From NCBI GenBank assembly GCA_024697705.1, contig JAILFF010000151.1:1-32418 (forward strand): a DNA stretch of 32,418 bases, in the 5' to 3' direction. The DNA comes from Ruminococcus sp. (GTDB lineage Bacteria > Bacillota > Clostridia > Oscillospirales > Ruminococcaceae). Positions 8,434 to 31,646 of the stretch are shown here, in pieces; positions within the stretch are counted from its first letter, which is position 1; the number at the start of each line of letters is the position of its first letter. A model generated the notes under the pieces. The model had not been told where the DNA came from, searched no databases, and saw nothing but the letters and a program-made list of their open reading frames with translations. A program made the translations under genes and the position numbers.

Positions 8434-8495
8434 GATAAAGCTCCTTTCGGAAAATTATTTAAATTAACAGCAAAGCGAAGGCAAACCAAAAGTCT

Positions 8496-8597: not shown

Positions 8598-8609
8598 ATT
8601 GCAGACTGC

Positions 8610-9788: not shown

Positions 9789-9798
9789 CCGTTTCGTG

Positions 9799-12491: not shown

Positions 12492-12564
12492 AGCTGATAC
12501 CCGGATTCGAACCGGGGACCTCATCCTTACCAAGGATGTGCTCTACCGACTGAGCCATATCAGC
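12492..12564 (-). tRNA. tRNA-Thr(GGT), copy 2
   Basis: The tRNA sequence is identical to copy 1, 268 bp away, with anticodon GGT. Flanking promoter and terminator are also near-copies, so the whole transcription unit was duplicated. Confidence 0.95.
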
Positions 12565-16618: not shown

Positions 16619-16647
16619 TTGACAACCGCGGGCTATTGTGATATAAT
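16619..16647 (+). promoter_or_regulatory. consensus promoter of the cobalamin-riboswitch operon
   Basis: TTGACA (16619-16624), exactly 17 bp, TATAAT (16642-16647). A perfect consensus sigma-A promoter whose start point would be about 15 nt before the aptamer. Confidence 0.92.
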
Positions 16648-16668
16648 ATCTATTATCAGGTATAGATT

Positions 16669-16869
16669 CGCCGCGGTTTGAAAGGCGCAATTGTCAGCCG
16701 AGTAGATCAAATGGGAAGTCGGTACAAATCCGACGCAACCGCCATTACCGTGATTGACCTCAATACCCTGCCATGTCCCGCAGCGGACGGTCATTGTTCC
16801 GACACGGAACGAGAAGGCGGCAGGATAAGCATCTCATGCGGGTCATAAGCCGGGAGAACTGCCGCGGCG
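16669..16869 (+). ncRNA. cobalamin riboswitch aptamer
   Basis: Closing stem P1 is CGCCGCGG (16669-16676) with CCGCGGCG (16862-16869). The conserved core GGGAAGTCGGTACAAATCCG is present, followed by CGCAACCGCC and CCGTGA, the degenerate form of the usual CCCGC-ACTGT block. The B12 box AGCCGGGAGAACTGCC lies at 16848-16863. These are the hallmark elements of adenosyl/hydroxocobalamin riboswitches, which turn genes off when corrinoid is plentiful. Confidence 0.93.
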
Positions 16870-17058
16870 TGACGGACTGTCTCCGTCGGAACCGTTTTAA
16901 GCCTTGGGCAAGAGGAAGGCATACGGTCGGTTTGTGGCTGCGGTATATCATTGCTGTTACGGCGCGTTCCGCAAAAGATCAAGGCGGTACGGGCTTTTTG
17001 AGGTATGCCGCAAAGCTCTCTCCGAGCAGCTCTCCCCCGCCCCCGAGCGGGATTTTTT
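16870..17058 (+). promoter_or_regulatory. riboswitch expression platform with long linker and terminator
   Basis: The terminator stem CCCGC (17036-17040) / GCGGG (17047-17051) is followed by A and six T (17053-17058), 33 nt before the first gene. GCTC (17029-17032) can alternatively pair with GAGC (17045-17048). About 165 nt of structured linker separate aptamer and terminator, including the hairpin ACCGT-GCCTT / AAGGC-ACGGT. AAGGAGGG at 17076-17083 then serves the first gene. Confidence 0.75.
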
Positions 17059-17090
17059 ATGCCTGAAAAATACTTAAGGAGGGTCTTTTT

Positions 17091-19445
17091 ATGATGAAAG
17101 GACTGTTCAAAAAAGCGTCTGCGGCAGCCGCGGCTGTCGTTCTCTCGGTCAGCACCCTTACGACAGGTGTCAGCGCGTTCGGCGGAGTCACTGAGACAGA
17201 CACGCCCACATCGGGCGATTCCGCCGTGCTAAAATGGGTGACCCGCGCAGCTGCTCCCGATGACTGGCAGAACGCTCCCGGTATGCCCGCGATAGCAGGC
17301 GATGAGATCGTCTATATCTGCGGCACCGAGCTTTGCGCTCTCGACAAGAAGACGGGCAAGCTGCTCGGCAAGAAGGGCACTCTCGCCTCCGCCGCGTCCT
17401 ACGGACTTTCGGCTCCCGTTTACGCCGACGGCAAGATCATCGTGGCATTGAGCGGCGGCGTTGTTCAGGCTTTTGACGCCGAAACCTTTGAATCGCTGTG
17501 GGTATACCATGACGAACTCGGCGGTCAGGCTGCCTGCACGGTCGCTTACGACAAAGGCTATGTTTATACGGGCTTCTGGACCAGCGAGGCAGATGAGGCT
17601 AACTTCGTCTGCATACCCACTGCCGATACCGACCCGTCTTCCCCCGACGAGGAACAGGCTGCCGCCTGGACCTATACCGCGAACGGTGGTTATTACTGGT
17701 CGGGCGCCTGCATCACCTCCAATCTTGTCATCTTCGGCACCGATAACGGCGACGCTTCGGGCGACGGCGAGGGCAGCAAGATAGTCGCCGTGAGCAAGGC
17801 TAAAAGTATATCCTCCGGCAAGGCATACGTCAGAGGAACTGCTGAGGGACTTTCGGGCGACCTGCGCTCGGGCATTACCAAAGACCCCGATTCCGACTAC
17901 TATTACGTTACCTCGAAGGCGAAAAAGCTTATCAGATTCAAGACCGACAGCACAGGGAAGATCGGCGACGTTGAAGAGCTTGAGCTTCCCGGAATGTCGA
18001 GCTCCACGCCGATAATCGCAAACGGCAGACTGTATATCGGCTTGTGCGGAAGCTCCGCCTGGTACGAATACACGGGACACAAGATAGCCGTTATCGACAC
18101 CAAATCGTTCAAGATAGCCTATACAGCGGAAACAAACGGCTACTGCCAGTCGAGCGCTCTTATCAGCGAGAGTGGCGGCGAGAACTACGTCTACTTCACC
18201 GCGAACATGATGCCCGGAAATGTTTATGTTCTTCATGACAAGCCCGGCATGACCGCTCCCGACCTTACCGAGACCGTCACTGCCGAAAGCGGCACGGTAA
18301 AAGCCTGCCCCGTGCTTTTCAGCCCAGCGGGCGGTTATTCGCAGTATTGCCTTTCGAGCGTTCTTGCCGACACGGACGGCACGCTGATCTTCAAAAACGA
18401 TTCCAACAGCATTTTCGCCGTAGCGAAGAAGCCCGTTTCGATAAAAGCCGATTTCTTAATGACCATCTACAAAGAGGGCGAGAGATTCAGCACCGACGGA
18501 TTTGAGGCTCGTGCGGTCTATGCCGACGGCACCGAAAAGGACATTACCGCCGACGCAAAAGCGAAAGTACCGACCAAAGCGCTCAAAGCTGGCAGCTACA
18601 AGCTCGAAGTGACATACGAATTCGGTCTCGCTCCCGACGGCACCGCTGCCGAGCCTTTCAAGACCGAAGTGAAATACGATGTTCTCGCCGCCGATGATTT
18701 CGACAATTATCAGGATACGGTAAACCTTATCGAAGAGCTGGGCGAGATCACCGAAGACAGCCGCGCCGACGTCGAAAGGGCAAGAAAGCTCTACGATTCG
18801 CTTTCCGATACGGCTAAGAAGCTCGTTTACAATTACGACGACCTCACAAGAGCGGAATGGGTCCTTGCAAGACTGGCGGAGTCAAAAAAGATCACGTTCT
18901 ATGACTGCGAGTTCGGAACGGATAACTCCGTAAAGCTGAGCTGGAGACCCGTAAGCGGAGCTTCTTCCTATCAGCTGTTCATGTACGATAACAACGGCGG
19001 CATGAAAAAGCTTGCCGATCTGAGAACACCTGTCGTAAAGCTCACGGGTCTTAAAGCAGGCAAGGAATACAGGTTCTGCGTAAAAGCCGCAGGCACCGAC
19101 GGCAGCGGCAAGACCGCGATCATCGCCGAATCCGATACGGAGCTCATAACTGCAAAGCTCGGTCAGACAAAGATAACCGACGGTAAGCTCGCTAATAACG
19201 GTCTGCTGCTCACCTATACCCCGTCAGAGGGCGCGGACGGTTACATGATACAGTATTACAGCACGGCGGCGAATGAATGGAAAACGCTTTCCACCGTCGG
19301 CGCGGAGCATACCAAGGTCAAACTGATAGGGATCAGAAGCGGCAAAACTTACAGATTCCGCGTTGTACCCGTGAAGAACACCGGCACGAATATGATAGTC
19401 GGAGACCCCTCCAACGAATTCGAGACAGGGTCATCCGATAAGTAA
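17091..19445 (+). CDS. secreted PQQ-type beta-propeller protein with Ig-like, helical and two FnIII domains
   Basis: A 784-residue exported protein and first gene of the riboswitch operon. The signal peptide (1-29) ends ...TGVSA. Residues about 45-440 are a PQQ/quinoprotein-type beta-propeller, with repeated blades such as 'VYICGTELCALDKKTGKLL' and 'VVQAFDAETFESLWVY'. Next are a bacterial Ig-like domain (about 448-535), a helical segment typical of Gram-positive surface proteins (about 537-600, 'LYDSLSDTAKKLVYNYDDL') and two FnIII domains (about 602-690 and 692-780). No anchor or sortase motif is visible. Control by a cobalamin riboswitch and the ECF genes downstream suggest corrinoid capture, as the Bacteroides BtuG propeller does, but homology to BtuG is not claimed. 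AAGGAGGG precedes the ATG. Confidence 0.85.
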   Translation: MMKGLFKKASAAAAAVVLSVSTLTTGVSAFGGVTETDTPTSGDSAVLKWVTRAAAPDDWQNAPGMPAIAGDEIVYICGTELCALDKKTGKLLGKKGTLASAASYGLSAPVYADGKIIVALSGGVVQAFDAETFESLWVYHDELGGQAACTVAYDKGYVYTGFWTSEADEANFVCIPTADTDPSSPDEEQAAAWTYTANGGYYWSGACITSNLVIFGTDNGDASGDGEGSKIVAVSKAKSISSGKAYVRGTAEGLSGDLRSGITKDPDSDYYYVTSKAKKLIRFKTDSTGKIGDVEELELPGMSSSTPIIANGRLYIGLCGSSAWYEYTGHKIAVIDTKSFKIAYTAETNGYCQSSALISESGGENYVYFTANMMPGNVYVLHDKPGMTAPDLTETVTAESGTVKACPVLFSPAGGYSQYCLSSVLADTDGTLIFKNDSNSIFAVAKKPVSIKADFLMTIYKEGERFSTDGFEARAVYADGTEKDITADAKAKVPTKALKAGSYKLEVTYEFGLAPDGTAAEPFKTEVKYDVLAADDFDNYQDTVNLIEELGEITEDSRADVERARKLYDSLSDTAKKLVYNYDDLTRAEWVLARLAESKKITFYDCEFGTDNSVKLSWRPVSGASSYQLFMYDNNGGMKKLADLRTPVVKLTGLKAGKEYRFCVKAAGTDGSGKTAIIAESDTELITAKLGQTKITDGKLANNGLLLTYTPSEGADGYMIQYYSTAANEWKTLSTVGAEHTKVKLIGIRSGKTYRFRVVPVKNTGTNMIVGDPSNEFETGSSDK

Positions 19446-19472
19446 CAGCAATGAACCAGGGAGCGTGAGAGC

Positions 19473-21452
19473 ATGAAAGCGGGCAGGATAATCATCAGAG
19501 CGGCAGCCGTGCTTACTTCGGCAGCAGCCGCGCTTTCGGCAGCCGTTTTAAAGCCTATCGACGCCGAAATATCCGAAGAGAACACGCCCGCCCGCTTTTC
19601 TCACGCCGTCACCGCCGCCGCTTTTTCAGCCGACACGAAGGACAGCTCCTCCGCAGAAGGAGAAACGGACGCAGGCGATAATTCAACCGAAAACATCACA
19701 GGAGAGGAGGAGCTTTTCACGGAAGAAAGCTCCTCCGTGCTCCCGCGGCTGCCCGATGAAAGCAGCAGTTCGGAAGGCGAAAGTCTGTCCGAAGCCGCGC
19801 ACGAGGAAAACATGAGCCTCGCGGACAGCGGCGGGAACACGGAGACCTCACATCAGACGGATAATACCGACAAGGAAGAGATTTCCAAGCAGACCGAAAG
19901 CGCTCCCGAAACGATCGGCGGAACACCTTCGGCTTCGGAAAGCGGCAGCGACGTTCCGAGTACATCTGCCCGGGAAAATACCGAAAATTCAGCCGTTCAG
20001 CCCGATCAGCCGACCGCCGATGACAGCTCGGACAGCGAAGAGGAACAGACCGTCATCACCGACGACGGCGAAAGCTCCGGCGAGCCGGGCAAGGACACCT
20101 ACCCCGAAGGCGGCATTAACAAAGTTAATGCTGCCGACAAGGTCTATTTCTCCACAGACATCACCGACGGAAAGCACTACGACCAGCCCGAGCTTAAATT
20201 CACCATCACCCACAACTGCCCCGAGCTGAAGATCGGACAGATCGAAGTCAAGCTGGACGGCATGAAACAGCCCTTCGGCGACCGCGTAACTCTTGCGGAG
20301 GGCAAAAACGAGATATACATCTCGGTCTCGTACACCGATAAGGACGGAAAGGTCATCACCGCCTGCCGCGAATATACCGTGTGGCTCGACAAGGCAGAGT
20401 CCGAAAAGACCCCGCCCGTGTTCGTTACAGACCTGTGCGACACAAGCACCGGGAACGCCGAATTTGCTTTCAAGGCGTATTTCGATGGCGGCACAGATGA
20501 TGCGGAAGGACTTTCTCTCGTTGTAAAGCTCGGCGGCAGAACGCTCGAAGGCGCGGGCGGCTGCTATGTCTGCACCCTTTCGCGGGGAGAGAACATCATC
20601 ACCGTGACGGGCGGCTACGATTTTGACGGCAGGCATACCGAGATAAACGAAAGCTATGTCATCACGCTCGAAGCCGATTCCGAAGCGCCGTTTCTCGAAT
20701 ACATAAACGTCCCCGAAAGCACGCGCAGCAGGATATTCACCCTCGACCTTATCGCAAGGGACAGCGGCGGCGGCAGGCTTTACAAGGGCAATATCTGCGT
20801 AAGGCTTAACGGTGCGGAGATAAAGTCCTCATGGAGCGAGACTACCTACACCACCTACGCGCTGAAGCTCGCCCCGGGCGACAATACGCTCGATATCCGC
20901 GTTACGGACAGCGACGGGTTGTTTTCCGACTACTCCTACGTAATAGGCTGCACGGCGGGCGCTGACGGCGAGGTCATCGGAAGTGCGGCTCTTACCGTTG
21001 ACTGCGGCGTACTGGGGCTCGGCAGTATATGCGACAGCGCGGACATCGACATAATTCAGGGGCAGTCAGCCGCCGAAGCCGTGACAAAGGCTCTCGAAGC
21101 GATGGGCTTCACGGTGGGCTATCGCGGCGAATTTGAAGGCGGGTTCTATCTGTACGGGCTTTACAAGGAGAACATAGCGGCGGGCGCCGAGATACCCGCA
21201 GACCTGCGCGGCTGCCTTGAAAACGACCCGACGGTAAGGATAAGCGACAGGACAGACCCCGACAGGCTTTGCGAATACGACTTCACAAGCGGCTCGGGCT
21301 GGATGGTCACGGTGAACGGGCATTTCACGACCTACGGCTTCAGCGACATTCATCTTCAGGACGGAAATTCCCTTGTGCTGAAATTCACGCTTGCGGGCGG
21401 CAGAGACATTGGAGATAAAGGCAGCGGAGCGCTTTATGACGTACAATATTGA
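19473..21452 (+). CDS. secreted Ig-repeat protein with C-terminal DUF4430 (transcobalamin-like C) domain
   Basis: A 659-residue exported protein. The signal peptide is MKAGRIIIRAAAVLTSAAAALSA-like (N-terminal about 24 residues). Residues 45-213 are a low-complexity Ser/Glu/Asp/Thr stalk. Three Ig- or cadherin-like beta domains follow (about 216-310, 313-405, 410-500). The C-terminus (about 505-648) is a DUF4430 domain, with the motif SGSGWMVTVNG and the ending 'DIHLQDGNSLVLKFTLAGG'. DUF4430 corresponds to the beta domain of animal transcobalamin and intrinsic factor, which closes over bound B12. There is no membrane anchor. AGGGAG lies at 19458-19463. Its 3' end overlaps the next gene by 17 nt in another frame; see the finding on a possible split protein. 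Confidence 0.88.
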   Translation: MKAGRIIIRAAAVLTSAAAALSAAVLKPIDAEISEENTPARFSHAVTAAAFSADTKDSSSAEGETDAGDNSTENITGEEELFTEESSSVLPRLPDESSSSEGESLSEAAHEENMSLADSGGNTETSHQTDNTDKEEISKQTESAPETIGGTPSASESGSDVPSTSARENTENSAVQPDQPTADDSSDSEEEQTVITDDGESSGEPGKDTYPEGGINKVNAADKVYFSTDITDGKHYDQPELKFTITHNCPELKIGQIEVKLDGMKQPFGDRVTLAEGKNEIYISVSYTDKDGKVITACREYTVWLDKAESEKTPPVFVTDLCDTSTGNAEFAFKAYFDGGTDDAEGLSLVVKLGGRTLEGAGGCYVCTLSRGENIITVTGGYDFDGRHTEINESYVITLEADSEAPFLEYINVPESTRSRIFTLDLIARDSGGGRLYKGNICVRLNGAEIKSSWSETTYTTYALKLAPGDNTLDIRVTDSDGLFSDYSYVIGCTAGADGEVIGSAALTVDCGVLGLGSICDSADIDIIQGQSAAEAVTKALEAMGFTVGYRGEFEGGFYLYGLYKENIAAGAEIPADLRGCLENDPTVRISDRTDPDRLCEYDFTSGSGWMVTVNGHFTTYGFSDIHLQDGNSLVLKFTLAGGRDIGDKGSGALYDVQY

Positions 21453-22773
21453 TACTCCCACGGCGGCATACGAAAGATATACTCTCACCGACGATAAATA
21501 TATAAAGCTCGTCGAAAACGCCCTCGATTGGGAACGCCGCCGCCTGAAAAAAGATTCGCTCGCGGAGGGCTTTGCCGAAAGCGGTGCAGCGGGCAGTCCC
21601 GAGGGCGACTGGTTCATGATAGCCGAAAAAGCGCTGGGTACAGAGGACGATTACGCCGCCTACATCAAAGCCTGCGAACAGCCCGAAGACCCCTCCCCCA
21701 CAGAAGCGGCGCGGCGGGCGATAACCGAAAGGCTGCTCACGGGCGGCGGAGACTACACGAACTTGTTCGCGCCAATGCCCGAATACGAGCTTAATGAGCT
21801 TGCGGTCAACGAGATAATTTGGGTCGGAACGGCGGAAAGGCTCTGCGGCGAGAGTTACACAGCTTATCTTGACGAGCTTATCGAACGGCAGAATCCCGAC
21901 GGCAGCTTCGGCATGAGGGGCGACAGCGACCCCGACCTCACCGCCATGTCGCTGATACTTCTCCCGAAAGAGAGCGAACAGGCGGTAAAGGCGCTGGGCT
22001 GTCTTTCCGAGATGTGGCAGAGCGGAAAGATCGCTAACTGCGAAGCCGCCGCCTGGTGCATAATAGGCTGCTGTTCACAGGATATCCGCCCGAACGACAC
22101 CGCCGATTTCCCCGCAGGAATTGACGGCAGAAGACCCATCGACCTGTTGGCGCTTGACTGCCTTTGCCGCGACGGAGGGTTCTCGCACCTTCCCGACGGT
22201 GATGATTCGGCGGCGCTCCCGACCGAACAGGCGCTTCTTGCGCTTGCGGCGCTTGCCGAATCGAACGCGAACGGCAACGGTCTTTTCGATGAAATAACGG
22301 TCGATACGGATATTTACAGTCAGCGAAAAATCAGCGGCGAGAGCTTTGACGAATTTGACGAAGCCGCCGCACGCGAACTTTCGCCAAGCACCGCGAATAA
22401 AGAAGCTCTTTGGGCGCTGCATGAACGGGCGAACTACTGCGGCGCGACCGATGAACAAAAGGCGCTTGCAGATGGAAAAATAACGGAGATACGCGAAAAG
22501 CTGCGCGTAATAAGCGAGCTTAATCTTGAAACGACCGTAAATCTTTACCCGCCGGAGGAAGTCGGTTTTACAAAGCTCGGGCAGCTGACCGAGCATAACC
22601 GCCGCGCCGCCGAAATCGCGGACGAGGACAAAGCTCTGCTGCTGGCGGGGGAAGAGCTTATCAAGAGGGAAAAACGGCTCAAAGCCGAGTGCGCCGCGGG
22701 AATCGCGGGGCTTGCCGTAACGACAGCGGGAGCAGTAATTTTATTTGTAAGGAAAAGGAAAAAGAGAAAATGA
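21436..22773 (+). CDS. terpenoid-cyclase-like alpha/alpha-toroid surface protein with C-terminal anchor
   Basis: A 445-residue protein of the prenyltransferase/squalene-oxidase repeat fold, of the secreted type found beside DUF4430 domains rather than a real terpene cyclase. Key segments are GDWFMIAEKALGTEDDYAAYI (family opening, about 58-77 by shortened motif GDW...DDYAAY), RQNPDGSFGMRGDSDPDLTAM (starting at 151) and RDGGFSHLP...TEQALLALAAL (about 245-275). Such alpha6/alpha6 barrels form the other half of transcobalamin. A transmembrane helix (about 420-438) is followed by the stop-transfer tail RKRKKRK. No signal peptide is present at this start, which is odd for an anchored surface protein. 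ATG 21436 has GGAG at 21426-21429; a TTG at 21391 is possible but unlikely. Confidence 0.85.
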   Translation: MTYNIDTPTAAYERYTLTDDKYIKLVENALDWERRRLKKDSLAEGFAESGAAGSPEGDWFMIAEKALGTEDDYAAYIKACEQPEDPSPTEAARRAITERLLTGGGDYTNLFAPMPEYELNELAVNEIIWVGTAERLCGESYTAYLDELIERQNPDGSFGMRGDSDPDLTAMSLILLPKESEQAVKALGCLSEMWQSGKIANCEAAAWCIIGCCSQDIRPNDTADFPAGIDGRRPIDLLALDCLCRDGGFSHLPDGDDSAALPTEQALLALAALAESNANGNGLFDEITVDTDIYSQRKISGESFDEFDEAAARELSPSTANKEALWALHERANYCGATDEQKALADGKITEIREKLRVISELNLETTVNLYPPEEVGFTKLGQLTEHNRRAAEIADEDKALLLAGEELIKREKRLKAECAAGIAGLAVTTAGAVILFVRKRKKRK

Positions 22774-23702
22774 TGAGTGAGATAAAACCGCTTTTCGATG
22801 AAATAAACAAGGCGCTTATCGGGCGCGGAGATACCGTGCTGAAATGCCTTACCGCGCTTGTTGCGGGCGGTCATGTGCTGCTCGAAGACAGCCCGGGCGT
22901 CGGAAAGACCACGCTTTCAAAGGCGGTCGCGGCGGCGGCGGGGCTTAAGACAAAGCGCGTGCAGTTCACGCCCGACACCCAGCCCTCCGACATAACGGGC
23001 TTTACGATGTGGGACGCGGAGCAGAAGAAATTCCGCTTTCACGAGGGCGCTGTACAGACGCACGTACTGCTTGCCGACGAGATAAACCGCACCTCGCCGC
23101 GCACCCAGTCGGCGCTTTTGCAGGCGATGGAGGAAGGCGCGGTCAGCGAGGAGGGTATCACCACCGAGCTCGAAAAGCCGTTCATGGTGATTGCCACGCA
23201 GAACCCCTTCGGCGCGGCGGGGACGATGCAGCTGCCCCATTCGCAGCTCGACCGCTTTATGATGAAGCTCTCTCTCGGCAGACCGACCGCCGATGAGCTT
23301 AAAGAGATGATACTCACACGCGGAACGGGAGCGCCCGAGATTCGCTCTGTCGGCAGCCGCGAGGAGATACTTTCCTTTCGAGAAAAGGCGGCTCGGGTCA
23401 AAATATCCGACGCGGCTTCGGAATGGATAGCCCGCCTTACCGAGCTTACCCACTCAAACGAGAATATCGCTCAGGGCGCAAGTCCCCGTGCGGCGCTTTC
23501 GCTTGCGGCGGCGGCACGGGCGGCGGCTTTCATCGACGGGCGCGACTACGTTCTTCCCGAAGATATCGCGGCGCTTTTCGCCGACTGCTTCGCCCACAGA
23601 CTTGTGCTTTCTTCCGCAGCAGGAATGGAAAGCGGTGCGGCGCGTGCCGTCTGCGGCGAGATACTCAAAAGCTGCCCTCCGCCGCACATACTTAAAAGAT
23701 AA
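22770..23702 (+). CDS. MoxR-family AAA+ ATPase within the corrinoid operon
   Basis: A 310-residue MoxR ATPase. Walker A is DSPGVGKT (40-47) and Walker B VLLADE (99-104), followed by INRTSPRTQ; the ATQNPFGAAGT motif and the C-terminal lid are present. The ATG overlaps the toroid gene stop (ATGA), showing translational coupling. The longer open frame from 22689 would run inside the toroid gene and is rejected. It precedes DUF58 and transglutaminase-like genes, the classical MoxR-DUF58-TGc trio, whose proposed role is chaperone-like remodelling of partner proteins at the membrane. Its place in a B12-regulated operon suggests the client is one of the surface or transport components. Confidence 0.93.
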   Translation: MMSEIKPLFDEINKALIGRGDTVLKCLTALVAGGHVLLEDSPGVGKTTLSKAVAAAAGLKTKRVQFTPDTQPSDITGFTMWDAEQKKFRFHEGAVQTHVLLADEINRTSPRTQSALLQAMEEGAVSEEGITTELEKPFMVIATQNPFGAAGTMQLPHSQLDRFMMKLSLGRPTADELKEMILTRGTGAPEIRSVGSREEILSFREKAARVKISDAASEWIARLTELTHSNENIAQGASPRAALSLAAAARAAAFIDGRDYVLPEDIAALFADCFAHRLVLSSAAGMESGAARAVCGEILKSCPPPHILKR

Positions 23703-23805
23703 AAGATAAGAGATAAAAGATATACTTTAATCCCCGTGTTTGAAATTTAAACTAATATTTCACTGTTGCGTATTATATCTATTATCTTTAATCTTTTATC
23801 TTAAA
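23694..23805. repeat. AAAAGAT-heptad palindromic element
   Basis: The left arm has four 7-bp units: AAAAGAT, AAAAGAT, AAGAGAT, AAAAGAT (23694-23721). The right arm holds inverted units ending in CTTTAAT, CTTTTAT and CTT (about 23772-23802). It straddles the end of the MoxR gene, so the last MoxR codons and its stop are repeat-derived. Confidence 0.75.
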
Positions 23806-23809
23806 GTAA

Positions 23810-24757
23810 ATGCTCATTTATAGTATCTTATATCTTATATCTCATATCTTTTATCTCATATCTTTTATCGCATATCTTTTATCTTATATCTTTTATCTTA
23901 TATCTTTCAACAGTGGGGGGCAGATTATTATTACGGTTATTATAGCGGTCGTTATCCCGCTGATGATAACGGCGGCTGTCATGTATGTGCTTGAAAGGCT
24001 CTCGGACAGGCGCGGGGCGAAGCTTTCTTTCTGCAAAGGGAAAATCGAACTGACGGCTGAGGAAAGCAGACTGTTAAAGCATTACAAGGCTGACATAACG
24101 CTTACGAACCTTTTCACGGGCGAGACCGCCGTCATCAAGGGCGTTCGCTTTTCCTCGCAGGATAAGGCTGTTGTACAAACAAAGCTCGTACCTGCGGCGG
24201 AGGGCTGCTCATGCGGTATGCTCCGCGCCGTGGTTTCAGCCGTGAAATGGCGTTACAGCTTCTGTCCCGCGTATGTTAAGGGCGTTCCTCCGAAAGCGGT
24301 CAGCCGTCTGATAATGCCGCAGGCAGCATCGGGCTTCATTCCCGCTGAGCTTCTTTTTCACATCGCGACTTCCTCCGACGGAATTCCCGACGGCGGCACC
24401 TGCGGCGCGAGAACATACCAACGCGGCGAACGAATGAGCGACATTCACATGAAGCTCTCGGCAAAGATGGGTAAGTACATGGTGCGCGAAAGACTGCCCG
24501 AATACGGTCTGCTGACGTTCGCTTTTTTCTACGAAAAAGGATTTGCCGAAAAAAACGCCGCGCTGCTGCTCGGGTGCGTTGGCGAATGTCTTACACGCGG
24601 AATAAAGTGCCGCGTCTTTTTCGGAGAAGAACAGGCGGCTGTCAATTCTTACGAGGAAATCGAACCTTTATTCGCACAGCTGCTTTCGGCTGAAAGACAA
24701 GCGCCCGCCGAAAAAGCGCAGTTCGGAATAACGCACGGGGAGGTCGTATGCAAATGA
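23810..24757 (+). CDS. DUF58 (von Willebrand A-like) membrane-anchored protein; start uncertain
   Basis: A DUF58 protein, the usual partner of MoxR. The signature RTYQRGERMSDIHMKLSAKM (short form YQRGE..DIHMK.SA) is present, followed by a Rossmann-like C-terminal half. The N-terminus is unusual. Residues 2-34 (315-residue version from ATG 23810) are translated from a 12-unit heptad repeat and form a hydrophobic stretch. A second hydrophobic segment, IIITVIIAVVIPLMITAAV (about 39-57), looks like the ancestral anchor. ATG 23810 has no ribosome binding site. GGGGGG at 23915-23920 could serve an AUU start near 23927-23930; ATG 23963 would cut the anchor. The 3' end overlaps the next gene by 10 nt. 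DUF58 identity is firm, the start is not. Confidence 0.8.
   Translation: MLIYSILYLISHIFYLISFIAYLLSYIFYLISFNSGGQIIITVIIAVVIPLMITAAVMYVLERLSDRRGAKLSFCKGKIELTAEESRLLKHYKADITLTNLFTGETAVIKGVRFSSQDKAVVQTKLVPAAEGCSCGMLRAVVSAVKWRYSFCPAYVKGVPPKAVSRLIMPQAASGFIPAELLFHIATSSDGIPDGGTCGARTYQRGERMSDIHMKLSAKMGKYMVRERLPEYGLLTFAFFYEKGFAEKNAALLLGCVGECLTRGIKCRVFFGEEQAAVNSYEEIEPLFAQLLSAERQAPAEKAQFGITHGEVVCK
23824..23907. repeat. 12-unit heptanucleotide tandem array
   Basis: Twelve contiguous 7-bp units of consensus TATCTT[A/T] with variants TATCTCA and TATCGCA. It is the inverse complement of the AAAAGAT heptads and lies inside the open reading frame of the DUF58 gene. Confidence 0.9.
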
Positions 24758-26820
24758 ATTTGACCGCACGAACAATGTTTGTGCCGGATCCCGCTTCGGG
24801 AAAGACGGTCTCCGCGGGGGCGCTCTGCCGAGTTCTCTGCGCGTTTGCCGCCGCGTTCTTCTCGCTTATCTTCGCGGGCTTCGGCTTACCCGTTTATGCG
24901 CTTATCGTCGGCTTGGCGGCTGTTTCTGCGGCTTATTTAAGCGACCGTTCCGAAAGAAAACCCGCCTTTCTGCCGCTGATACTGCTTGCCGCTGTCCCCG
25001 CCGCCATTGCGGGAAGAGACATTCCCTCGCAGGCGGGCAGGATATTCAATGTACTTTCGGACAAGTGGCTCGTCAGGCGGGAGACGCTCACTCCGCTGCT
25101 TGATACGGAAAGCCCGTCTGCGGCGGCGATATGCTTTTTCGCGGCGCTTGCGGGAGCGGTGTTCTTCTTTGCCGCCGTTTCGCGGATAAAGGCTGTACGG
25201 CTCGGGCTTGCGGCGGCGGAGGTGCTTTTCGCGGCGCTTTTTGCCGATGACGCCTTGTCCGTGATGTTCGCGGTCTGCTCGGCGCTGCTTGCCTTTTCGG
25301 ACGAACGATTCGGCATTAACTTCGCTAATGCCGCCGAACCTGTTCTGCGGACGGTCGGAATATCTGCTTGTGTCTGGGCGCTTATCGTCACGGGTGCGGC
25401 GGGGAGCGTTTCCGAGCGGCTTGTCTCGTGCTGTTCGGCAGGAAAGATAAGTCAGGCTAACGGCTCGCTCGACAGGGCTTTTTCGGGCGAAACCGATATT
25501 AAGGCGCTCGAAGTGTCTATGAACGTTCCCGAAGCTATGTATCTTCACGGCTTTCTCGGCTGCAAGCTTGTCGGCGACAAATGGCGGGGCTATGAGCTTA
25601 CGGCACGAGGGACTCGCGAAAAAAACAGAACGGCGCACACCGACATGATATATCTCGCCAAAAGCGGCACCGACGCACAGACCGCGCTTTACACGCTTGC
25701 AAAGAACTCGGGCTGCCGAATGAACAGCGTTACCGTTCGGAATATCGGCGCGGACAAGGGGCTTCTTTATCTGCCCGTGACTTCTTCTGACTGCGGGCAT
25801 AAGCAAGCTTATGCAAACTTCCCTGCCGAATTGAATCTTCCCGCGCACGGGCGAAATACCGTTACGGTCGAAACGCCGCTTGCGCTTCACTCGCTGACGG
25901 ACAGGCTCTCGCAGGCGGCGGCTGACCCCGCGCTTTCGGACGAAGGTGCAGTCAACAGACTTGACGCGCTCTACCGCGAGGAATATCTCGACATTCCCGA
26001 CGGGACGGCTCACTTTTTGGAGACACTGTTTCCCCATGCCGAACAGTACGACATAACGGCGGCGGCAAAGGCGGCTTACGAGTTCTGCAAAGGCTGCGAG
26101 CTTGACAATTCCGCCGCCTGTTCGCTTGCCGAATTCATGCAGCAGACGAAAACAGGCAGTGCGGCGCATTTCGCCTCTGCGGCGGTGATGATCTTCCGCT
26201 ATTACGGTATTCCCGCGAGGTACGCGGAGGGCTTCGCGCTGACACGCAGTCTTGCGGCGGGCAAAGTAAGCGGTTCGCCGATAACTCTGACCGACAAGGA
26301 GCTTCACGCATGGGCTGAGTATTATCTTGACGGCGCGGGCTGGCTGCCGTTTGAGACTGTCCCCTATTATCTCGAGGAAATGCCGCAGCCCGAGGGCTTC
26401 TCCGTAGGCAAGGCAATTTCCGGCAGCGGTCAAAAAAACACCGACAAGCCCGTCAGGGAGCTTTCGGGAACGCGCCCCGCCATGCTCATAAGAGAGGAAC
26501 AGCCGAAGGAAGAAAGCCCGCTCATCGTGCCGATAATCGTTGTTTCGGCGGCTGTCTGTCTGCTGACTGCGGCGGCTTGCAGACATTACCTGTATGTAAA
26601 AAAGCTCAAAGCCGACCCGTGCCGTGCGCTTTCGGAATGTGCGGCTGTACTCGGGAAAAGCTGCGACGAAGCGGGGAATTACGACTTCTCGGACTGCGCT
26701 CCCGACCTTAAAGAAGAGCTTGACGGCTTGCAGGCGGATTGTCTGAACATCGTTTATTGCGGCGGCGAAATCTCCTGCAAACCGTACAGCATACTAAAGC
26801 ATTGCAAAAAAAGTGTATAG
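24748..26820 (+). CDS. polytopic membrane protein with degenerate transglutaminase-like domain
   Basis: A 690-residue protein with the TgpA/DUF3488-TGc layout: an N-terminal multi-helix membrane domain (about 26-215), an extracellular linker, a transglutaminase-like core (about 440-545), a Pro/Glu-rich stretch and a final transmembrane helix (about 591-610) with a cytosolic tail. The core motif normally reads G-[YF]-C-x-H-F-A, but here it is G-S-A-A-H-F-A: the catalytic Cys position is Ala472. H520 (ELHAWAEYY) is kept, and the usual Asp in VDPTP is Glu536 (FETVP). It is therefore probably a non-catalytic binding module. It overlaps the DUF58 gene by 10 nt, completing the MoxR-DUF58-TGc trio. 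The 3' end is followed by a heptad element. Confidence 0.88.
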   Translation: MQMNLTARTMFVPDPASGKTVSAGALCRVLCAFAAAFFSLIFAGFGLPVYALIVGLAAVSAAYLSDRSERKPAFLPLILLAAVPAAIAGRDIPSQAGRIFNVLSDKWLVRRETLTPLLDTESPSAAAICFFAALAGAVFFFAAVSRIKAVRLGLAAAEVLFAALFADDALSVMFAVCSALLAFSDERFGINFANAAEPVLRTVGISACVWALIVTGAAGSVSERLVSCCSAGKISQANGSLDRAFSGETDIKALEVSMNVPEAMYLHGFLGCKLVGDKWRGYELTARGTREKNRTAHTDMIYLAKSGTDAQTALYTLAKNSGCRMNSVTVRNIGADKGLLYLPVTSSDCGHKQAYANFPAELNLPAHGRNTVTVETPLALHSLTDRLSQAAADPALSDEGAVNRLDALYREEYLDIPDGTAHFLETLFPHAEQYDITAAAKAAYEFCKGCELDNSAACSLAEFMQQTKTGSAAHFASAAVMIFRYYGIPARYAEGFALTRSLAAGKVSGSPITLTDKELHAWAEYYLDGAGWLPFETVPYYLEEMPQPEGFSVGKAISGSGQKNTDKPVRELSGTRPAMLIREEQPKEESPLIVPIIVVSAAVCLLTAAACRHYLYVKKLKADPCRALSECAAVLGKSCDEAGNYDFSDCAPDLKEELDGLQADCLNIVYCGGEISCKPYSILKHCKKSV

Positions 26821-26835
26821 TTGAAAAGTTAGTTA

Positions 26836-27008
26836 AAGTGAATAGTGAATAGTTAAGGAGCGCCTTACGGCGCGAATTATGCGCAGGCTGCGCCGCGCAC
26901 TGATTATCGTTATTGAACAACAACTTTTTGCGGCGCTTGCGTCCGCATAATATCGTCCGCGAAGCGGACACCACAACTATTCACTATTCACTATTAACTA
27001 TTCACTTA
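26836..27008. repeat. TTAATAG-heptad palindromic element, copy 2
   Basis: Left units TGAATAG, TGAATAG, TTAAGGA (26839-26858); right units CAACTAT, TCACTAT, TCACTAT, TAACTAT, TCACTTA (26974-27008). The interior shares GCGAAGCGG and GCATAATAT-type palindromes with copy 1. It fills the gap between the transglutaminase-like gene and the DUF4430 lipoprotein gene. Confidence 0.8.
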
Positions 27009-27025
27009 TTTTGGGGGAGCGTATA

Positions 27026-27553
27026 ATGATGTTAAGAAAGATGATCGGGCTGTTTGCCGCCGTTCTGATAGCTCTCGGCGGGTCGGGGTGTAAGCTTATC
27101 AGCACTGCGCCACCTACGGTGGTGCCGCCGCCGGAGGATTCGCCCCCTGCCGCCGAGCAGTCAGCCGCAGAGATAAGCGTTACGCTCGACATTGATTTTT
27201 CGGCGGTCTATGAAGCGGCAAATTACGAAAAGCTCGACCCCGCACTGAAAAACGCCGCTCTGCCGCAGGACGGCACGTTCGGCAAGGCGGCTGTGCGTTC
27301 GGCGAAGGAGGGCAGCACCGCGCTCGACGTGCTTCGCGGCTACTGCGACGAGAACGGCATCATGCTCGATGTGCGGCACGGAATGGCGGGTATCTCGGAC
27401 TACGTGCGCGGCATAGGAGGGCTTTCGGAGGGCGACTGCACGCGCAATTCGGGCTGGGTCTACGAGATAAACGGCACCCTCCCCGACGTGGGTATGTCGG
27501 ACACCGTGATGAAGGACGGCGAACATCTTTTCGTGCGGTACATTGTGTATTAA
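27026..27553 (+). CDS. DUF4430 lipoprotein (predicted corrinoid-binding beta domain)
   Basis: A 175-residue protein. A lipoprotein-like signal (MMLRKMIGLFAAVLIAL...GSGC, Cys about 22) and a Pro-rich linker (27-46) precede a stand-alone DUF4430 domain. This shows TALDVLRGYCDENG, then the hallmark NSGWVYEING and the ending DGEHLFVRYIVY. The lipobox -3 residue is Gly, which is atypical. The open frame starts at a TTG at 27011, but ATG 27026 with GGGGGAG at 27013-27019 is the better start. Located immediately before the ECF genes, it could be the membrane-proximal binding partner that hands cargo to the S component. Function is inferred from fold and context. Confidence 0.87.
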   Translation: MMLRKMIGLFAAVLIALGGSGCKLISTAPPTVVPPPEDSPPAAEQSAAEISVTLDIDFSAVYEAANYEKLDPALKNAALPQDGTFGKAAVRSAKEGSTALDVLRGYCDENGIMLDVRHGMAGISDYVRGIGGLSEGDCTRNSGWVYEINGTLPDVGMSDTVMKDGEHLFVRYIVY

Positions 27554-27625
27554 AAGATGTAAGATAAAAGATAAAAGATATTTATGCAGTTCGGGGCTTT
27601 GCGCAAAAAAATATCTTATATCTTT
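27531..27625. repeat. duplicated segment copy A (lipoprotein 3' end plus heptad hairpin)
   Basis: It begins with 28 bp (27531-27558) repeated exactly at 27911-27938, which includes the last codons and stop of the lipoprotein gene. It continues as heptads AAAAGAT, GTAAGAT, AAAAGAT, AAAAGAT, then the loop TTCGGGGCTTTGCGCAAAAA and inverted TATCTTA, TATCTTT. Confidence 0.8.
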
Positions 27626-27660
27626 TGCGGCTGTCGGACAGCGAACGGAAACGTTCAATA

Positions 27661-27832
27661 CATCACAACACATTACATCGGAATCGGTTTCCGTTGTAAT
27701 GCCCGAAACCCTTGATTTTACGCGGTTTTGAGAGCTTTCATTACAACACTTCATCAAAATAGGCAAACTTTAAAAAATTTACAGAAGAAAAAATATATAA
27801 AGTTTGGGAAAAGTGTTGTAAGTGTTGTGATG
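27661..27832. repeat. nested inverted-repeat insertion with TGTTGTAA motifs
   Basis: The outer arms CATCACAACACATTAC (27661-27676) and GTAAGTGTTGTGATG (27818-27832) are near-inverse, and the inner arms TTACAACACTT (27741-27751) and AAGTGTTGTAA (27811-27821) are exact inverses. It lies between the two duplicated segments. No protein is encoded. Confidence 0.6.
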
Positions 27833-27910
27833 CTGTAAGACAAGCTGTAATAGCGTAGGGTTTTAATTTAACTGTCCTAAATTATGTACCGCATTTCATG
27901 AAGTCTGAGG

Positions 27911-28025
27911 TCGTGCGGTACATTGTGTATTAAAAGATAAAAGATGTAAGATAAAAGATATTAATTCGGTTCGGGGCTTTGCGCAAAAAAAATCTTATAT
28001 CTTATATCTTATATCTTTTATCTTA
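27911..28025. repeat. duplicated segment copy B with vestigial DUF4430 C-terminus
   Basis: The 28-bp exact copy (27911-27938) could encode the last codons VRYIVY-stop of a DUF4430 gene, but no gene precedes it. It is followed by the same heptads, the shared loop TTCGGGGCTTTGCGCAAAAA and five inverted units to 28025. Confidence 0.75.
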
Positions 28026-28054
28026 CAACTATTAACTTTTTACAGGTGTGGGTC

Positions 28055-28945
28055 ATGAAAGCATTTTCACGGTTGAATCCGTTTGTACTGATGATATTCT
28101 TCGCCGCCGCCATCGGGACGGGCGTGTTCTGCTATGTTCCCGCTATCCGCGCCGTTTCGCTTGCGGGGGCGGTACTTTCGTTACTCGTTTCGGGGATATG
28201 CCGAAAGCCCGTGCGGGAGCTTCTCGGCTATGCGGGGATAATACTTGTCTCGGGCGTGATAAACCCCGTTATCGTGACGCTCGGGAACACCCCGCTGTTC
28301 TGGCTCGTCGGGCGACCCTACACGCTCGAAGCCCTTCTGTACGGGGCGAATAACGGTATGGCGATAGTCTCGGCGCTTTTGTGGTTCAGGCTATTTTCGG
28401 CGGTGATGACTGCGGAAAAACTGAGCTTTCTCATGTCGGGGACGGTGCTTTCGGGCTTCGGCACGGCGTTCACGCTGACCCTGCGGTACGTTCCCGAGCT
28501 GATACGCCGCTTTAAGGAATGTTGCGCTGCACACCGTGCGAACAAGTTCGCACCGGCGGCGGGAGCCGTTTGCGGCAAGGGCTTTCTTTCGAGGGCGGCA
28601 TTTTATCTTAACGTGTTCATGTCGGTGGCTTCTTCGGCGCTTGAATCGTCGGCGCAGACGGCTGACAGCATGAAGGCGCGGGGGTGTCTGCTTTCGCCCA
28701 AATCGCGGCTGACAACGTATTCTTTGCGGGCTGCGGACGTTCTCTGCGCGGCGCTTTCCGTGACCGCCGTCTGTTCGGCAGTTTTCGCTTCGAGGGCGGG
28801 CAGGCTCTGCGCGGCGTTTTATCCGTCGGTAAAGTCGGAATATCCCCCCGTAACAGCTGTAATGTACGGAGCGCTTTGCCTGCTGCCCGTACTGTTTTCG
28901 ATAATGGAGAGTATAAAATGGCACTTTTGCAGACCGAAAACTTAA
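28055..28945 (+). CDS. ecfT: ECF transporter transmembrane coupling subunit EcfT
   Basis: A 296-residue polytopic protein. EcfT is the membrane scaffold that couples ATP hydrolysis by EcfA to toppling of the S component. It has about five to six hydrophobic segments, and the diagnostic coupling-helix motif appears as TADSMKARG near residue 205 (Ala-Arg-Gly). ATG 28055 has AGGTG upstream; an upstream GTG at 28046 is possible. The gene overlaps ecfA by 28 nt. As the first of three ECF genes downstream of a cobalamin riboswitch, it most likely belongs to a dedicated corrinoid importer. Confidence 0.9.
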   Translation: MKAFSRLNPFVLMIFFAAAIGTGVFCYVPAIRAVSLAGAVLSLLVSGICRKPVRELLGYAGIILVSGVINPVIVTLGNTPLFWLVGRPYTLEALLYGANNGMAIVSALLWFRLFSAVMTAEKLSFLMSGTVLSGFGTAFTLTLRYVPELIRRFKECCAAHRANKFAPAAGAVCGKGFLSRAAFYLNVFMSVASSALESSAQTADSMKARGCLLSPKSRLTTYSLRAADVLCAALSVTAVCSAVFASRAGRLCAAFYPSVKSEYPPVTAVMYGALCLLPVLFSIMESIKWHFCRPKT

Positions 28946-30597
28946 GCTTTGCGTACCCCGGCGGCGGCAAAGTCCTTGATAACATCGGCTTTTCGGCGGA
29001 GAGAGGCGAGCTTGTGCTTATCTGCGGCAGCTCGGGCTCGGGGAAGACGACTCTGCTTAGGCTTTTAAAGCCCGATATCGCGCCTTTCGGGGAGCGTTCG
29101 GGAAAAATCATTTATGACGGAAGTGACATATCTGCGCTTGACAACCGCCGCTCGGTCGGCGAGATAGGCTATGTCGGGCAAGACCCGAACGCCGCCGCCG
29201 TCACCGACACCGTTTTAGCCGAGCTTGCCTATCTGCCCGAAAACTTAGGGCTGCCGCGGGGGACAATATTGCGCCGTATCGCCGAGCTTTCGGCGTACTT
29301 CGGGCTGGAGCATCTTATCGACAGGAGGATAAGCGAGCTCAGCGCGGGGCAGAAGCAGCTTGTTCAGCTGGCGGCGGTTGCACGAGCATACCTCGTGCCG
29401 TCGGCTTCGCCCTCGCTGCTGCTGCTCGACGAGCCGACGGCGCAGCTCGACCCGCGTTCCGCAGAGGTTTTCCGCAATATCATACTGAAAATCCGTTCGG
29501 AGCTCGGCACGACGGTCATCATCTGCGAACACGATACAAGAGGGCTTTTCGGCAGCTGCGACCGTCTGCTTTATCTCGAAAACGGCAGACAGCGCTTTTT
29601 TGTACAAAATCCGTTTGTGCCGCCGCACGAACAGTGTACAAACTCCGTTTGTACCGCGGCAAGGCTTATCGGCACCGAAGCGGAGGACGCTCTCCCCTGC
29701 TGCTATCGGCTTTCGGCGGCGCTCGGGCTTGATAAGCCGCTCAAAGACGCAGCCGCCGCAAGAAATTATCTGCTTGAAAATAAGCCCTCTGCTTTGCCCG
29801 AGACAAAAGAATATCAGCCCGATAAGGAGATAGCCGTCAGCATAAAGAACATATATTTCAGCTATACGAAGCACGGCAGAGACGTTCTTGCGGGGCTCAC
29901 GCTTTCGATACCGAAGGGCAGTATCACAGCGGTTTTCGGCGCGAACGGCACGGGCAAAAGCACTCTCTTGAAGATAATTTCGGGCGTGTACCGACCGTTC
30001 GAGGGCAGCATTAAGATATTCGGCAAGAGCGTCAAAAGCTGCTGCGGGACAGCCATGCTTCCGCAGGACCCGCATCTGATACTGACCGAGAAGACGCTTC
30101 TTAAGGACATCAAACGCGGCTGCGACCTGCCCGACATCGAAGGCGAAATTGCGCGGCTTTCGGAAACGCTCGGGCTTTCTGCCGAAACACTCGGAAGGTA
30201 TCATTACGACTGCTCGGGCGGCGAGCTTCAGCGGGCGGCGCTCATGAAGCTTCTGATAAAAAAGCCGCGTCTGCTGCTTCTCGACGAGCCCGAAAAGGGG
30301 CTTGACTGCGGGAACAAAAGGCGGCTGACGGGAATACTTAAGCGCTTTGCTGAGGGCGGCGGGACGGTCATATTCGTGACCCACGACGCGGAATTTGCCG
30401 CCGAGACCGCCGACAGCGCCGTTATGATGTTCGGAGGTATCTGCGCCGCTCACGAGCCGATTAACGCCTTTCTTTCGGAGGGCGAGCTTTTCACGACCGA
30501 AGCGGCGCGTATCGCAAGGGGCATTATTCCGGGCTGCGTCACCGCCGAACAGCTGATAGACTGCTGCCGAAGGGGGCTGACGGCTGACGATGAATAA
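28918..30597 (+). CDS. ecfA: fused ECF transporter ATPase (EcfA-EcfA')
   Basis: A 559-residue protein carrying both ABC ATPase domains in one chain. Domain 1: Walker A GSSGSGKTT (37-45), signature LSAGQ (141-145), Walker B LLLLDEP (167-173), switch H205. Domain 2: Walker A GANGTGKST (341-349), signature CSGGE (432-436), Walker B LLLLDEP (452-458), switch H489. All catalytic motifs are intact in both halves. The open frame runs back to 28684, inside ecfT, but ATG 28918 starts right at the conserved MALLQTENLSFAYPGG N-terminus. It ends overlapping the S-component start by 8 nt, so ecfT-ecfA-S are translationally coupled. Confidence 0.95.
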   Translation: MALLQTENLSFAYPGGGKVLDNIGFSAERGELVLICGSSGSGKTTLLRLLKPDIAPFGERSGKIIYDGSDISALDNRRSVGEIGYVGQDPNAAAVTDTVLAELAYLPENLGLPRGTILRRIAELSAYFGLEHLIDRRISELSAGQKQLVQLAAVARAYLVPSASPSLLLLDEPTAQLDPRSAEVFRNIILKIRSELGTTVIICEHDTRGLFGSCDRLLYLENGRQRFFVQNPFVPPHEQCTNSVCTAARLIGTEAEDALPCCYRLSAALGLDKPLKDAAAARNYLLENKPSALPETKEYQPDKEIAVSIKNIYFSYTKHGRDVLAGLTLSIPKGSITAVFGANGTGKSTLLKIISGVYRPFEGSIKIFGKSVKSCCGTAMLPQDPHLILTEKTLLKDIKRGCDLPDIEGEIARLSETLGLSAETLGRYHYDCSGGELQRAALMKLLIKKPRLLLLDEPEKGLDCGNKRRLTGILKRFAEGGGTVIFVTHDAEFAAETADSAVMMFGGICAAHEPINAFLSEGELFTTEAARIARGIIPGCVTAEQLIDCCRRGLTADDE

Positions 30598-31288
30598 CGA
30601 GCATTTTAAAAGAGCGCTGTTCATTCTCTCGGTGCTGACGCTCGGCGCGGCGGCGGGTATGGGTGCTGTTAACAGCGGGAGCGGCAGAAATATGTCTCTT
30701 TCGATAACGGCGGCGGCGGCTTCGGGGCTGCTTGCGATGGCGGCTTTCTCGGGCAGGATAAAGGAGCCGCATTACATAACGCTCGTGTCGGTGCTTTCGG
30801 CGCTTTCGGTCACGGGGAGGATTGTTTTCGCGCCGTTTGCGGGGTTCAAGCCCTGCACGGCGGTGATCATCACGGCGGGAATGTGTCTCGGCTGCGATGC
30901 GGGGTTCATCACGGGGGCGCTGACGGCTTTGGTGTCGAATTTCTACTTCGGGCAGGGCTCATGGACGCTCTATCAGATGCTCGCGTGGGGGATAGTCGGC
31001 ATCGCGGCGGGCTTATCGGGAAAGCTGCTGCAAAAAAGCCGTGCGGCGCTTCTGATCTTCGCGGCGCTTTCGGGCGGGGTGTATTCGCTCATTATGGACG
31101 TTTTCTCGACCTTCTGGGCTGACGGCTACTTCAATATGCTGCGGTTCGCGGCGCTTACGGCAAGCTCTCTGCCGCTGACGATAACCTACGCGGTGTCGAA
31201 CGTGGTCTTTATCGCCGTGCTTTCGGACAGGTTGTGCTTTACCGTTCTGCGGATAAAAAACAAATACGGCATCGGAAGAAAGATATAA
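30590..31288 (+). CDS. ECF transporter S component, predicted cobalamin/corrinoid-specific
   Basis: A 232-residue membrane protein with six predicted helices. The blocks GRIVFAPFAGFKPCTAVII, LGCDAGFITGALTALVSNFYFGQGSWTLYQM and GIVGIAAGLSGKLL are typical of the S-component group predicted for cobalamin (CblT-like) in Firmicutes. ATG 30590 overlaps the ecfA stop. The riboswitch at the head of the operon and the DUF4430 genes support corrinoid as cargo. The specificity is inferred and the exact S-family name is not certain. The last residues (RKI then TAA) are partly encoded by heptad repeat sequence. Confidence 0.85.
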   Translation: MNNEHFKRALFILSVLTLGAAAGMGAVNSGSGRNMSLSITAAAASGLLAMAAFSGRIKEPHYITLVSVLSALSVTGRIVFAPFAGFKPCTAVIITAGMCLGCDAGFITGALTALVSNFYFGQGSWTLYQMLAWGIVGIAAGLSGKLLQKSRAALLIFAALSGGVYSLIMDVFSTFWADGYFNMLRFAALTASSLPLTITYAVSNVVFIAVLSDRLCFTVLRIKNKYGIGRKI

Positions 31289-31312
31289 GATAAAAGATAT
31301 AGGATAAAAGAT
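31278..31312. repeat. AAAAGAT-type heptad array at the operon end
   Basis: Five 7-bp units: GAAAGAT, ATAAGAT, AAAAGAT, ATAGGAT, AAAAGAT (31278-31312). It covers the S-component stop codon. No inverted partner follows here. Confidence 0.8.
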
Positions 31313-31320
31313 AACAGACT

Positions 31321-31345
31321 AAGGCTCTCCGGAATTTTTCGGGGA
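31321..31345 (+). terminator. terminator of the corrinoid operon
   Basis: AAGGCTCTCCG pairs, with two wobble pairs, with CGGGGAGCTTT across the GAATTTTT loop, followed by a run of T. Confidence 0.85.
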
Positions 31346-31463
31346 GCTTTTTTTCTGCATAAATGCCTGCTTGTCTGCATACAATTTAACAAGCACTAAA
31401 AAAGATAACCTCGTCCCGCGAAAACCGTAAAAATCACTTTCCCACCGACAAATAAAATTCGTT

Positions 31464-31607
31464 CTCACTACGGTAAAAAGCGTGTAATTACGTGGGGTTT
31501 ACGTAATGAGATCAAAATCTCACTACGGTAAAATAACGGTATATCGTGTTTTCTCCGTAGTGAGATTGAAATTATATATTTAGGGATTTGAATCTCACTA
31601 CGGTAAA
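31464..31607. repeat. CTCACTACGGTAAA repeat cluster upstream of spoIIIAA
   Basis: Three direct copies of CTCACTACGGTAAA (31464-31477, 31519-31532, 31594-31607) and one inverted copy CCGTAGTGAG (31555-31564). There is also the palindrome ATTACGT/ACGTAAT (31487-31493 and 31501-31507). The spacers are unequal, so this is not a CRISPR. It fills the roughly 300-bp gap before spoIIIAA, where no gene is seen. Confidence 0.75.
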
Positions 31608-31646
31608 TCATCGTCTGAGGGTCAGCCCGAAAGAAAGGAAAAAGCC

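Follow-up and report, generated by a model that had tools for sequence, protein, structure and literature searches.

In a metagenome-assembled genome of a Ruminococcus species (GCA_024697705.1; 3.14 Mb, 83.6% complete), ten same-strand genes behind a cobalamin riboswitch constitute a genuine and conserved operon for capture and import that is linked to B12. The operon lies on a single contig (JAILFF010000151.1) whose whole length of 32,418 nucleotides was analysed and is referred to here as the window. It encodes a secreted beta-propeller protein, two DUF4430 proteins (DUF4430-A and DUF4430-B), an alpha/alpha toroid protein, a MoxR-DUF58-TGc triad and the components EcfT, EcfAA' and EcfS of an energy-coupling factor (ECF) importer. 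With good confidence, the operon can be regarded as a B12-repressed operon for corrinoid scavenging, and a two-domain clamp, predicted from sequence comparisons and structural models, is its likely mechanism of capture.

A preliminary description, made from the DNA letters alone, had proposed that the toroid and DUF4430 proteins represent a split transcobalamin that captures corrinoid and passes it to the ECF importer. This interpretation as a whole was partly supported. It is not new in kind, as it rediscovers a published prediction: Burroughs et al. (2007; PMC1796856) predicted Gram-positive surface proteins with toroid and SLBB domains that scavenge B12, encoded in operons with CbiO/CbiQ, and intrinsic factor and transcobalamin were proposed there to be animal acquisitions from Gram-positive bacteria. 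The hallmarks of these systems were found in the window: Pfam assigned the transcobalamin-type DUF4430/SLBB domain in two of its proteins, the toroid is encoded in the same operon, and EcfAA' and EcfT represent the CbiO-like ATPase and the CbiQ-like component, the latter by homology to CbiQ-positive relatives. A literature search that reached few subscription papers revealed no experimental follow-up of the 2007 prediction. New in the present analysis are the link to riboswitches in many lineages, the recognition of the S component as CbrT-type, the structural match of a bacterial fusion protein to intrinsic factor and transcobalamin, the counts of split and fused arrangements and the recurrent triad. 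The prediction thereby gains strong comparative and structural support.

Homologous operons and their riboswitches

When 199 genomes of the same family were searched with the toroid, 13 of them had matches, the window's own included. A cobalamin riboswitch, DUF4430 and a toroid, plus ECF genes where the contig allowed, were found together in five homologous loci (L017, L020, L021, L022 and L023), and L018 repeated the gene order of the window, including the propeller and the MoxR-DUF58-TGc genes. In L022 (11180-13954) a single reading frame encodes both EcfAA' and EcfS.

An independent search of GTDB species genomes was seeded with the S component alone. Among its best 80 loci, 72 contained an EcfT gene and 61 of those had enough upstream sequence to be judged (assessable loci). 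The S-seeded loci came from Clostridia and Bacilli and included the cultured Bacilli Siminovitchia thermophila, Viridibacillus soli, Kurthia sp., Lysinibacillus macroides and Bacillus ndiopicus, as well as Anaerosalibacter. Both the toroid and DUF4430 were encoded at most 8.5 kb from the S gene in 51 of the 61 assessable loci (about 85%; 52 with a wider radius for L041), in company with EcfT, EcfAA' and EcfS. In a third sample, the toroid was detected at E 1e-10 in 107 of 295 genomes of the order, and two loci taken from its best matches (L145 and L146) carried the whole operon behind a cobalamin riboswitch.

Toroid and DUF4430 are separate genes in the window, whereas they form one open reading frame in 31 of the 61 assessable relatives. 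Nearly all of these fusions have the order toroid, two transmembrane helices, DUF4430, the domain order of transcobalamin. A single chain with DUF4430 before the toroid was seen in L017, L022 and L031. The split form is one arrangement of the family, and about half of the relatives are fused.

A B12-class riboswitch was located at the 5' end and on the right strand in 37 of the 61 assessable loci. Thirty-five of them were RF00174 (30 above and 5 below the gathering score) and two, in Ruminococcus, were AdoCbl-II. For part of the RF00174 cases the position was inferred from whole-genome contig coordinates; it was confirmed directly in L080, L094 and L061, and a near-consensus B12 box was present in many further loci. 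Because the surveyed genomes mostly contained one or two B12-class riboswitches in about 2 Mb, chance placement is estimated to explain well under one of the 61 loci. The B12-class control described for the window, in which an RF00174 aptamer and a probable expression platform lie upstream of the genes, is a repeated property of the homologous loci. Scanning of 16 of the 24 riboswitch-negative loci against all Rfam revealed no other riboswitch class, and control of the homologues by other riboswitches was rejected on this basis. A tetrahydrofolate (THF) riboswitch in L019 belongs to the neighbourhood of another toroid family.

This second toroid family (L019, L025, L026, L027 and L029) has DnaJ-like and small membrane genes as neighbours, and L027 encodes a lone DUF4430 protein. 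It is possible that it serves a different ligand.

The importer and its ligand

The profile of the S family, built from five proteins, had its best PDB match in 6fnp_A, the ECF-CbrT complex (1.6e-19), and the next match followed at 0.004. The ECF genes named in the preliminary description were confirmed, and a CbrT-type S component, related to that of a proven cobalamin importer, is supported by this match. ECF-CbrT of Lactobacillus delbrueckii transports cobalamin and a cobalamin precursor (PMC5997447), and CbrUVT, known as a predicted cobalamin transporter, has been listed among the B12 transporters of gut genomes (PMC6593275) and with cobyrinate diamide uptake (PMC8123684). The window operon shares with CbrT and CbrUVT the CbrT-family S component, the T and duplicated A components and the B12-linked context (PMC5997447; PMC6593275). 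In contrast to L. delbrueckii ECF-CbrT, which uses a shared ECF module, it encodes a dedicated module, and it also encodes predicted surface-capture proteins, which are not described for the studied ECF-CbrT.

The S component is labelled ECF-ribofla_trS by Pfam and, weakly, as folate family by NCBIfam, and together with the toroid near the THF riboswitch in L019 these labels could point to an importer for another vitamin of the folate or riboflavin type, the cobalamin riboswitch being coincidental. The gap between the CbrT match and the next PDB match, as well as the recurrence of B12-class riboswitches across lineages with no other class found at the 16 riboswitch-negative operons scanned, led to the rejection of a folate or riboflavin importer, and the L019 toroid is of a different family with no DUF4430 or ECF T/A genes nearby. 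Such an importer is exceedingly improbable.

A different question is which corrinoid is imported. The operon might serve the uptake of a corrinoid precursor or analogue, such as cobinamide, cobyrinate diamide or cobamides lacking dimethylbenzimidazole, instead of cobalamin, and the clamp would then be haptocorrin-like in breadth. The precursor transport by ECF-CbrT and the listing of CbrUVT with cobyrinate diamide are in line with this possibility, and so is the host genome. A second cobalamin riboswitch of the host (L030, G000:C284, 6375-6584, minus strand; locus 671-9903) precedes a gene for a CbiK-like cobaltochelatase whose N-terminus is of the lipoprotein type, two further genes and BtuC/BtuD-type ABC genes, and CobQ and CobD are encoded on its other side; late assembly steps may be present. 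On the other hand, this riboswitch class responds to finished cobalamins, though it is able to control precursor salvage too, and the evidence presented here gives no discrimination among corrinoids. Import of a precursor or analogue is a tenable but rather tentative alternative. The cluster amounts to another uptake route of the host, for corrinoid or metal.

Toroid and DUF4430 proteins compared with transcobalamin

The operon was shown to encode homologues of both transcobalamin and intrinsic factor domains, the toroid and DUF4430-B, as separate membrane-attached proteins. The DUF4430-B family (65 sequences) was aligned with a profile built from transcobalamin, intrinsic factor and haptocorrin sequences (human, rat and bovine). 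The alignment covered the beta domain (hhalign 92.5%, E 4.9e-7) with a conserved tryptophan and subsequent Gly, Tyr and Asp-Gly positions in register, which bears out the earlier assignment of DUF4430 to the transcobalamin beta-domain type. Against single PDB sequences the DUF4430-B profile gave no match at E 10. In addition, the natural toroid-DUF4430 fusion L071 was modelled with AlphaFold from 31 relatives, with a mean predicted local distance difference test (pLDDT) score of 87 and both domains mostly above 90. PDB ranks 1-15 for this model were intrinsic factor, transcobalamins and haptocorrin, matched over the whole target with E values from 4.4e-9 to 1.8e-6, and terpene cyclases came after them at 3e-5. 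Residues D193, D195, T197, E243, Q247 and H288, as well as W490 and Y518 (L071 numbering), are conserved.

The window toroid itself was placed by a 61-row toroid alignment and by an AlphaFold model from 61 relatives (core pLDDT about 95). In this model it appears as a generic alpha/alpha toroid, indistinguishable from others when taken alone; use of the model as proof of a transcobalamin-type toroid was therefore rejected, and transcobalamin was not detected by direct sequence searches from the toroid. Because its own structural and sequence matches are non-discriminating, the assignment of the toroid rests on its partner, the fusions and the operon. The proposal that the window supplies the same two folds as transcobalamin is supported for DUF4430-B and by the modelled fusion L071, and the model of the window toroid did not single out transcobalamin.

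Several observations weigh against a B12-repressed scavenging operon with a transcobalamin-like clamp. The best PDB match of the window toroid model was farnesyltransferase beta (1.8e-3), with transcobalamin at 0.05, and the sequence similarity of the toroid family to transcobalamin was weak (hhalign 26%). In the L071 apo model the domains were not packed as in holo-transcobalamin (root-mean-square deviation 8.6-15 over both domains, predicted template modelling score 0.61), so their relative placement is not established. L018, the most similar operon, has no riboswitch above threshold. The host need not depend on the operon for B12, because it possesses the riboswitch-linked BtuC/BtuD-type cluster with CobQ and CobD. 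Finally, the window toroid lacks a signal peptide. When 71 toroid frames were put through a crude test, 69 showed an N-terminal hydrophobic signal. In L088, one of the remaining two, a signal was apparently missed, and the window copy is the clear exception; in its close relatives L018 and L041, toroid and DUF4430 are separate genes with signal peptides. The open frame of the window toroid starts at 21391 and shares about 60 nt with the end of DUF4430-A, and its ATG at 21436 lies inside the last DUF4430-A codons in another frame, with GGAG 6 nt upstream. An assembly error, a real loss and a frameshifted fusion cannot be told apart as causes. Since the signal peptide is absent, the surface location given for this protein in the preliminary description is doubtful, and its toroid fold was upheld by the profile match and the core of the model.

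With regard to the packing of the domains, the separately expressed alpha and beta domains of human transcobalamin join only with cobalamin (PMC5599065). The clamp may therefore be invisible in an apo model, and the split arrangement is mechanically possible.

The toroid sequence profiles matched squalene-hopene cyclases (3.5e-12), and weak matches were obtained to the Pfam SQHop_cyclase and Prenyltrans models. Together with the farnesyltransferase match and the presence of other toroid families of the order in unrelated loci (L019, L025-L027 and L029), this could suggest that the toroid is an enzyme of the terpene cyclase or prenyltransferase type, or a polysaccharide-binding surface domain, for which the B12 importer would be an incidental neighbour. 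A cyclase match is expected, however, because terpene cyclases and transcobalamin share the alpha/alpha toroid. The secreted or membrane-anchored location of the toroids, the 31 single-chain DUF4430 fusions inside these operons and the ranking of the full fusion with intrinsic factor, transcobalamin and haptocorrin ahead of any cyclase make an enzyme or polysaccharide-binding domain very unlikely.

If the operon serves B12-repressed corrinoid scavenging, the leader terminator would not form at low cellular cobalamin and the operon would be made. The outer propeller and DUF4430-A proteins would then concentrate corrinoid at the wall, EcfT and EcfAA' would drive import and, on weaker grounds, the MoxR-DUF58-TGc triad would probably assist surface-protein assembly. 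It is unlikely that the operon is a full Gram-positive equivalent of the intrinsic factor pathway, with a clamp of two membrane proteins that closes around one corrinoid, docks directly on the CbrT-type ECF and is assembled by a dedicated MoxR-DUF58-TGc triad, the catalytic cysteine of the transglutaminase-like domain being lost.

Operon layout, accessory genes and related systems

The consensus promoter, the B12 riboswitch with its terminator and the co-directional gene set named in the preliminary description were all recovered (Table 1), the genes by Pfam/NCBIfam annotation, homologues and AlphaFold, and a strong terminator follows EcfS. The leader terminator lies 30 nt 5' of the first operon gene. 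The stretch from 26700 to 31700 yielded no strong internal promoter, which makes a single transcript plausible despite a 490-nt AT-rich, repeat-filled gap between DUF4430-B and EcfT.

Table 1. Transcription signals and genes of the operon in the window
Feature	Position	Strand	Evidence
Promoter, sigma-70-type consensus TTGACA-17-TATAAT	16619-16647	+	12/12 matches, extended -10
Cobalamin riboswitch aptamer RF00174	16657-16880	+	61.9 bits (gathering score 31.5), E 3.4e-13, full model length
Leader intrinsic terminator, probable expression platform	17036-17061	+	CCCGC/GCGGG stem (5 G-C pairs) and T-run, 17036-17051
Secreted PQQ-type beta-propeller, Big_3-like and two fn3 domains	17091-19445	+	Pfam PQQ_2 1.7e-7, fn3 6.1e-13
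DUF4430-A: signal peptide, cadherin-like domains, C-terminal DUF4430	19473-21452	+	Pfam Cadherin-like 1.1e-7, DUF4430 1.4e-5
Alpha/alpha toroid protein, C-terminal transmembrane anchor, no signal peptide	21436-22773	+	Profile E 1.6e-42
MoxR-family AAA+ ATPase	22767-23702	+	Pfam AAA_3 1.5e-52
DUF58-like membrane protein, divergent	23810-24757	+	Positional homologues with PF01882
Membrane transglutaminase-like (TGc) protein, Ala at active-site Cys position	24748-26820	+	Transglut_core 5.3e-15, motif GSAAHFA
DUF4430-B, probable lipoprotein, counterpart of transcobalamin beta domain	27011-27553	+	Pfam DUF4430 1.5e-11
EcfT (CbrV-like) transmembrane component	28046-28945	+	phmmer 1e-34 to L023 EcfT
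EcfAA' duplicated ATPase (CbrU-like)	28915-30597	+	Two ABC_tran domains, 2.2e-49
EcfS, CbrT-like substrate component	30590-31288	+	Pfam PF07155 1.6e-6; family profile against PDB
Intrinsic terminator closing the operon	31321-31357	+	13-pair stem at 31321-31350, then T-run

Pfam gave no significant match for the window toroid, the DUF58-like protein and EcfT. The DUF58-like protein was identified via its homologues in L041, L079 and L087, which match PF01882, and EcfT via those in L023 and L079, which match PF02361. DUF4430-B is the partner that accompanies the ECF genes, and DUF4430-A, part of a larger cadherin-like protein, has a homologue in L018 (E 8e-64). Propeller homologues occupy the same operon position in L018 and L021. 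BtuG of Bacteroides is a beta-propeller, as is the product of the first gene.

In the window, L018, L021 and L041 the triad is part of the operon, and in L079 (Siminovitchia) and L087 (Anaerosalibacter) it follows immediately on the S gene. The operon MoxR of the window was slightly nearer to the other operon copies (44-48%) than to the second MoxR of the window (43%). All six operon-linked TGc proteins lack the active-site cysteine, which is kept in 14 of 17 unlinked homologues with a readable motif. As three unlinked copies also lack it, cysteine loss was rejected as a mark of the B12-linked copies. Cysteine-less transglutaminase-like proteins were observed in three loci not linked to B12: in L141 and L143 their neighbours are MoxR and a gene of DUF58 size, in L142 an ABC ATPase. 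The cysteine-less TGc proteins form a wider subfamily. By our reading, no new case of a triad near a toroid was present among the 120 of 295 order genomes with a TGc match in this unbiased sample. We therefore take the triad to be an occasional accessory, perhaps with a role in surface assembly.

The operon gaps at 27531-28040 and 31270-31327 contain 7-nt AT-rich repeat blocks (TAAAAGA/ATCTTAT) with inverted arms, and an 81-nt direct repeat in these gaps takes in the last DUF4430-B codons. These may be elements resembling miniature inverted-repeat transposable elements or repetitive extragenic palindromes. A CTCACTACGGTAAA-type motif is repeated several times, in both directions, at 31440-31610, 5' of the next gene, which by eye encodes a SpoIIIAA-like ATPase. 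Two minus-strand tRNA genes (12224-12296 and 12492-12564), about 200 nt apart, gave identical alignments and scores.

Like the systems of Burroughs et al. (2007; PMC1796856), the operon and its relatives combine a secreted toroid with SLBB (DUF4430), as single proteins or as fusions of either order, a further SLBB paralogue, beta-propeller and Ig-type partners and CbiO/CbiQ-type transporter genes; riboswitch evidence, an S-component assignment, the structure of a bacterial member and the MoxR-DUF58-TGc triad are absent from that paper. Animal intrinsic factor, transcobalamin and haptocorrin, the closest PDB structures to the L071 model, have the same two folds in the same order as the single-chain relatives. 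They differ in that the bacterial proteins are attached to the membrane or wall, often split or joined by two transmembrane helices, and would hand over to an ECF importer in a system with no endocytic receptor. The BtuG and BtuH lipoproteins of Bacteroides likewise capture B12 at the surface of gut bacteria but feed the outer-membrane BtuB (PMC6143338, PMC8941943).

This widespread operon names proteins and cultured organisms in which the proposed animal acquisition of intrinsic factor and transcobalamin, and the surface capture of B12 by Gram-positive gut bacteria, can be tested. Such bacteria would add competitors for dietary B12 beside the BtuG/BtuB systems of Bacteroides.

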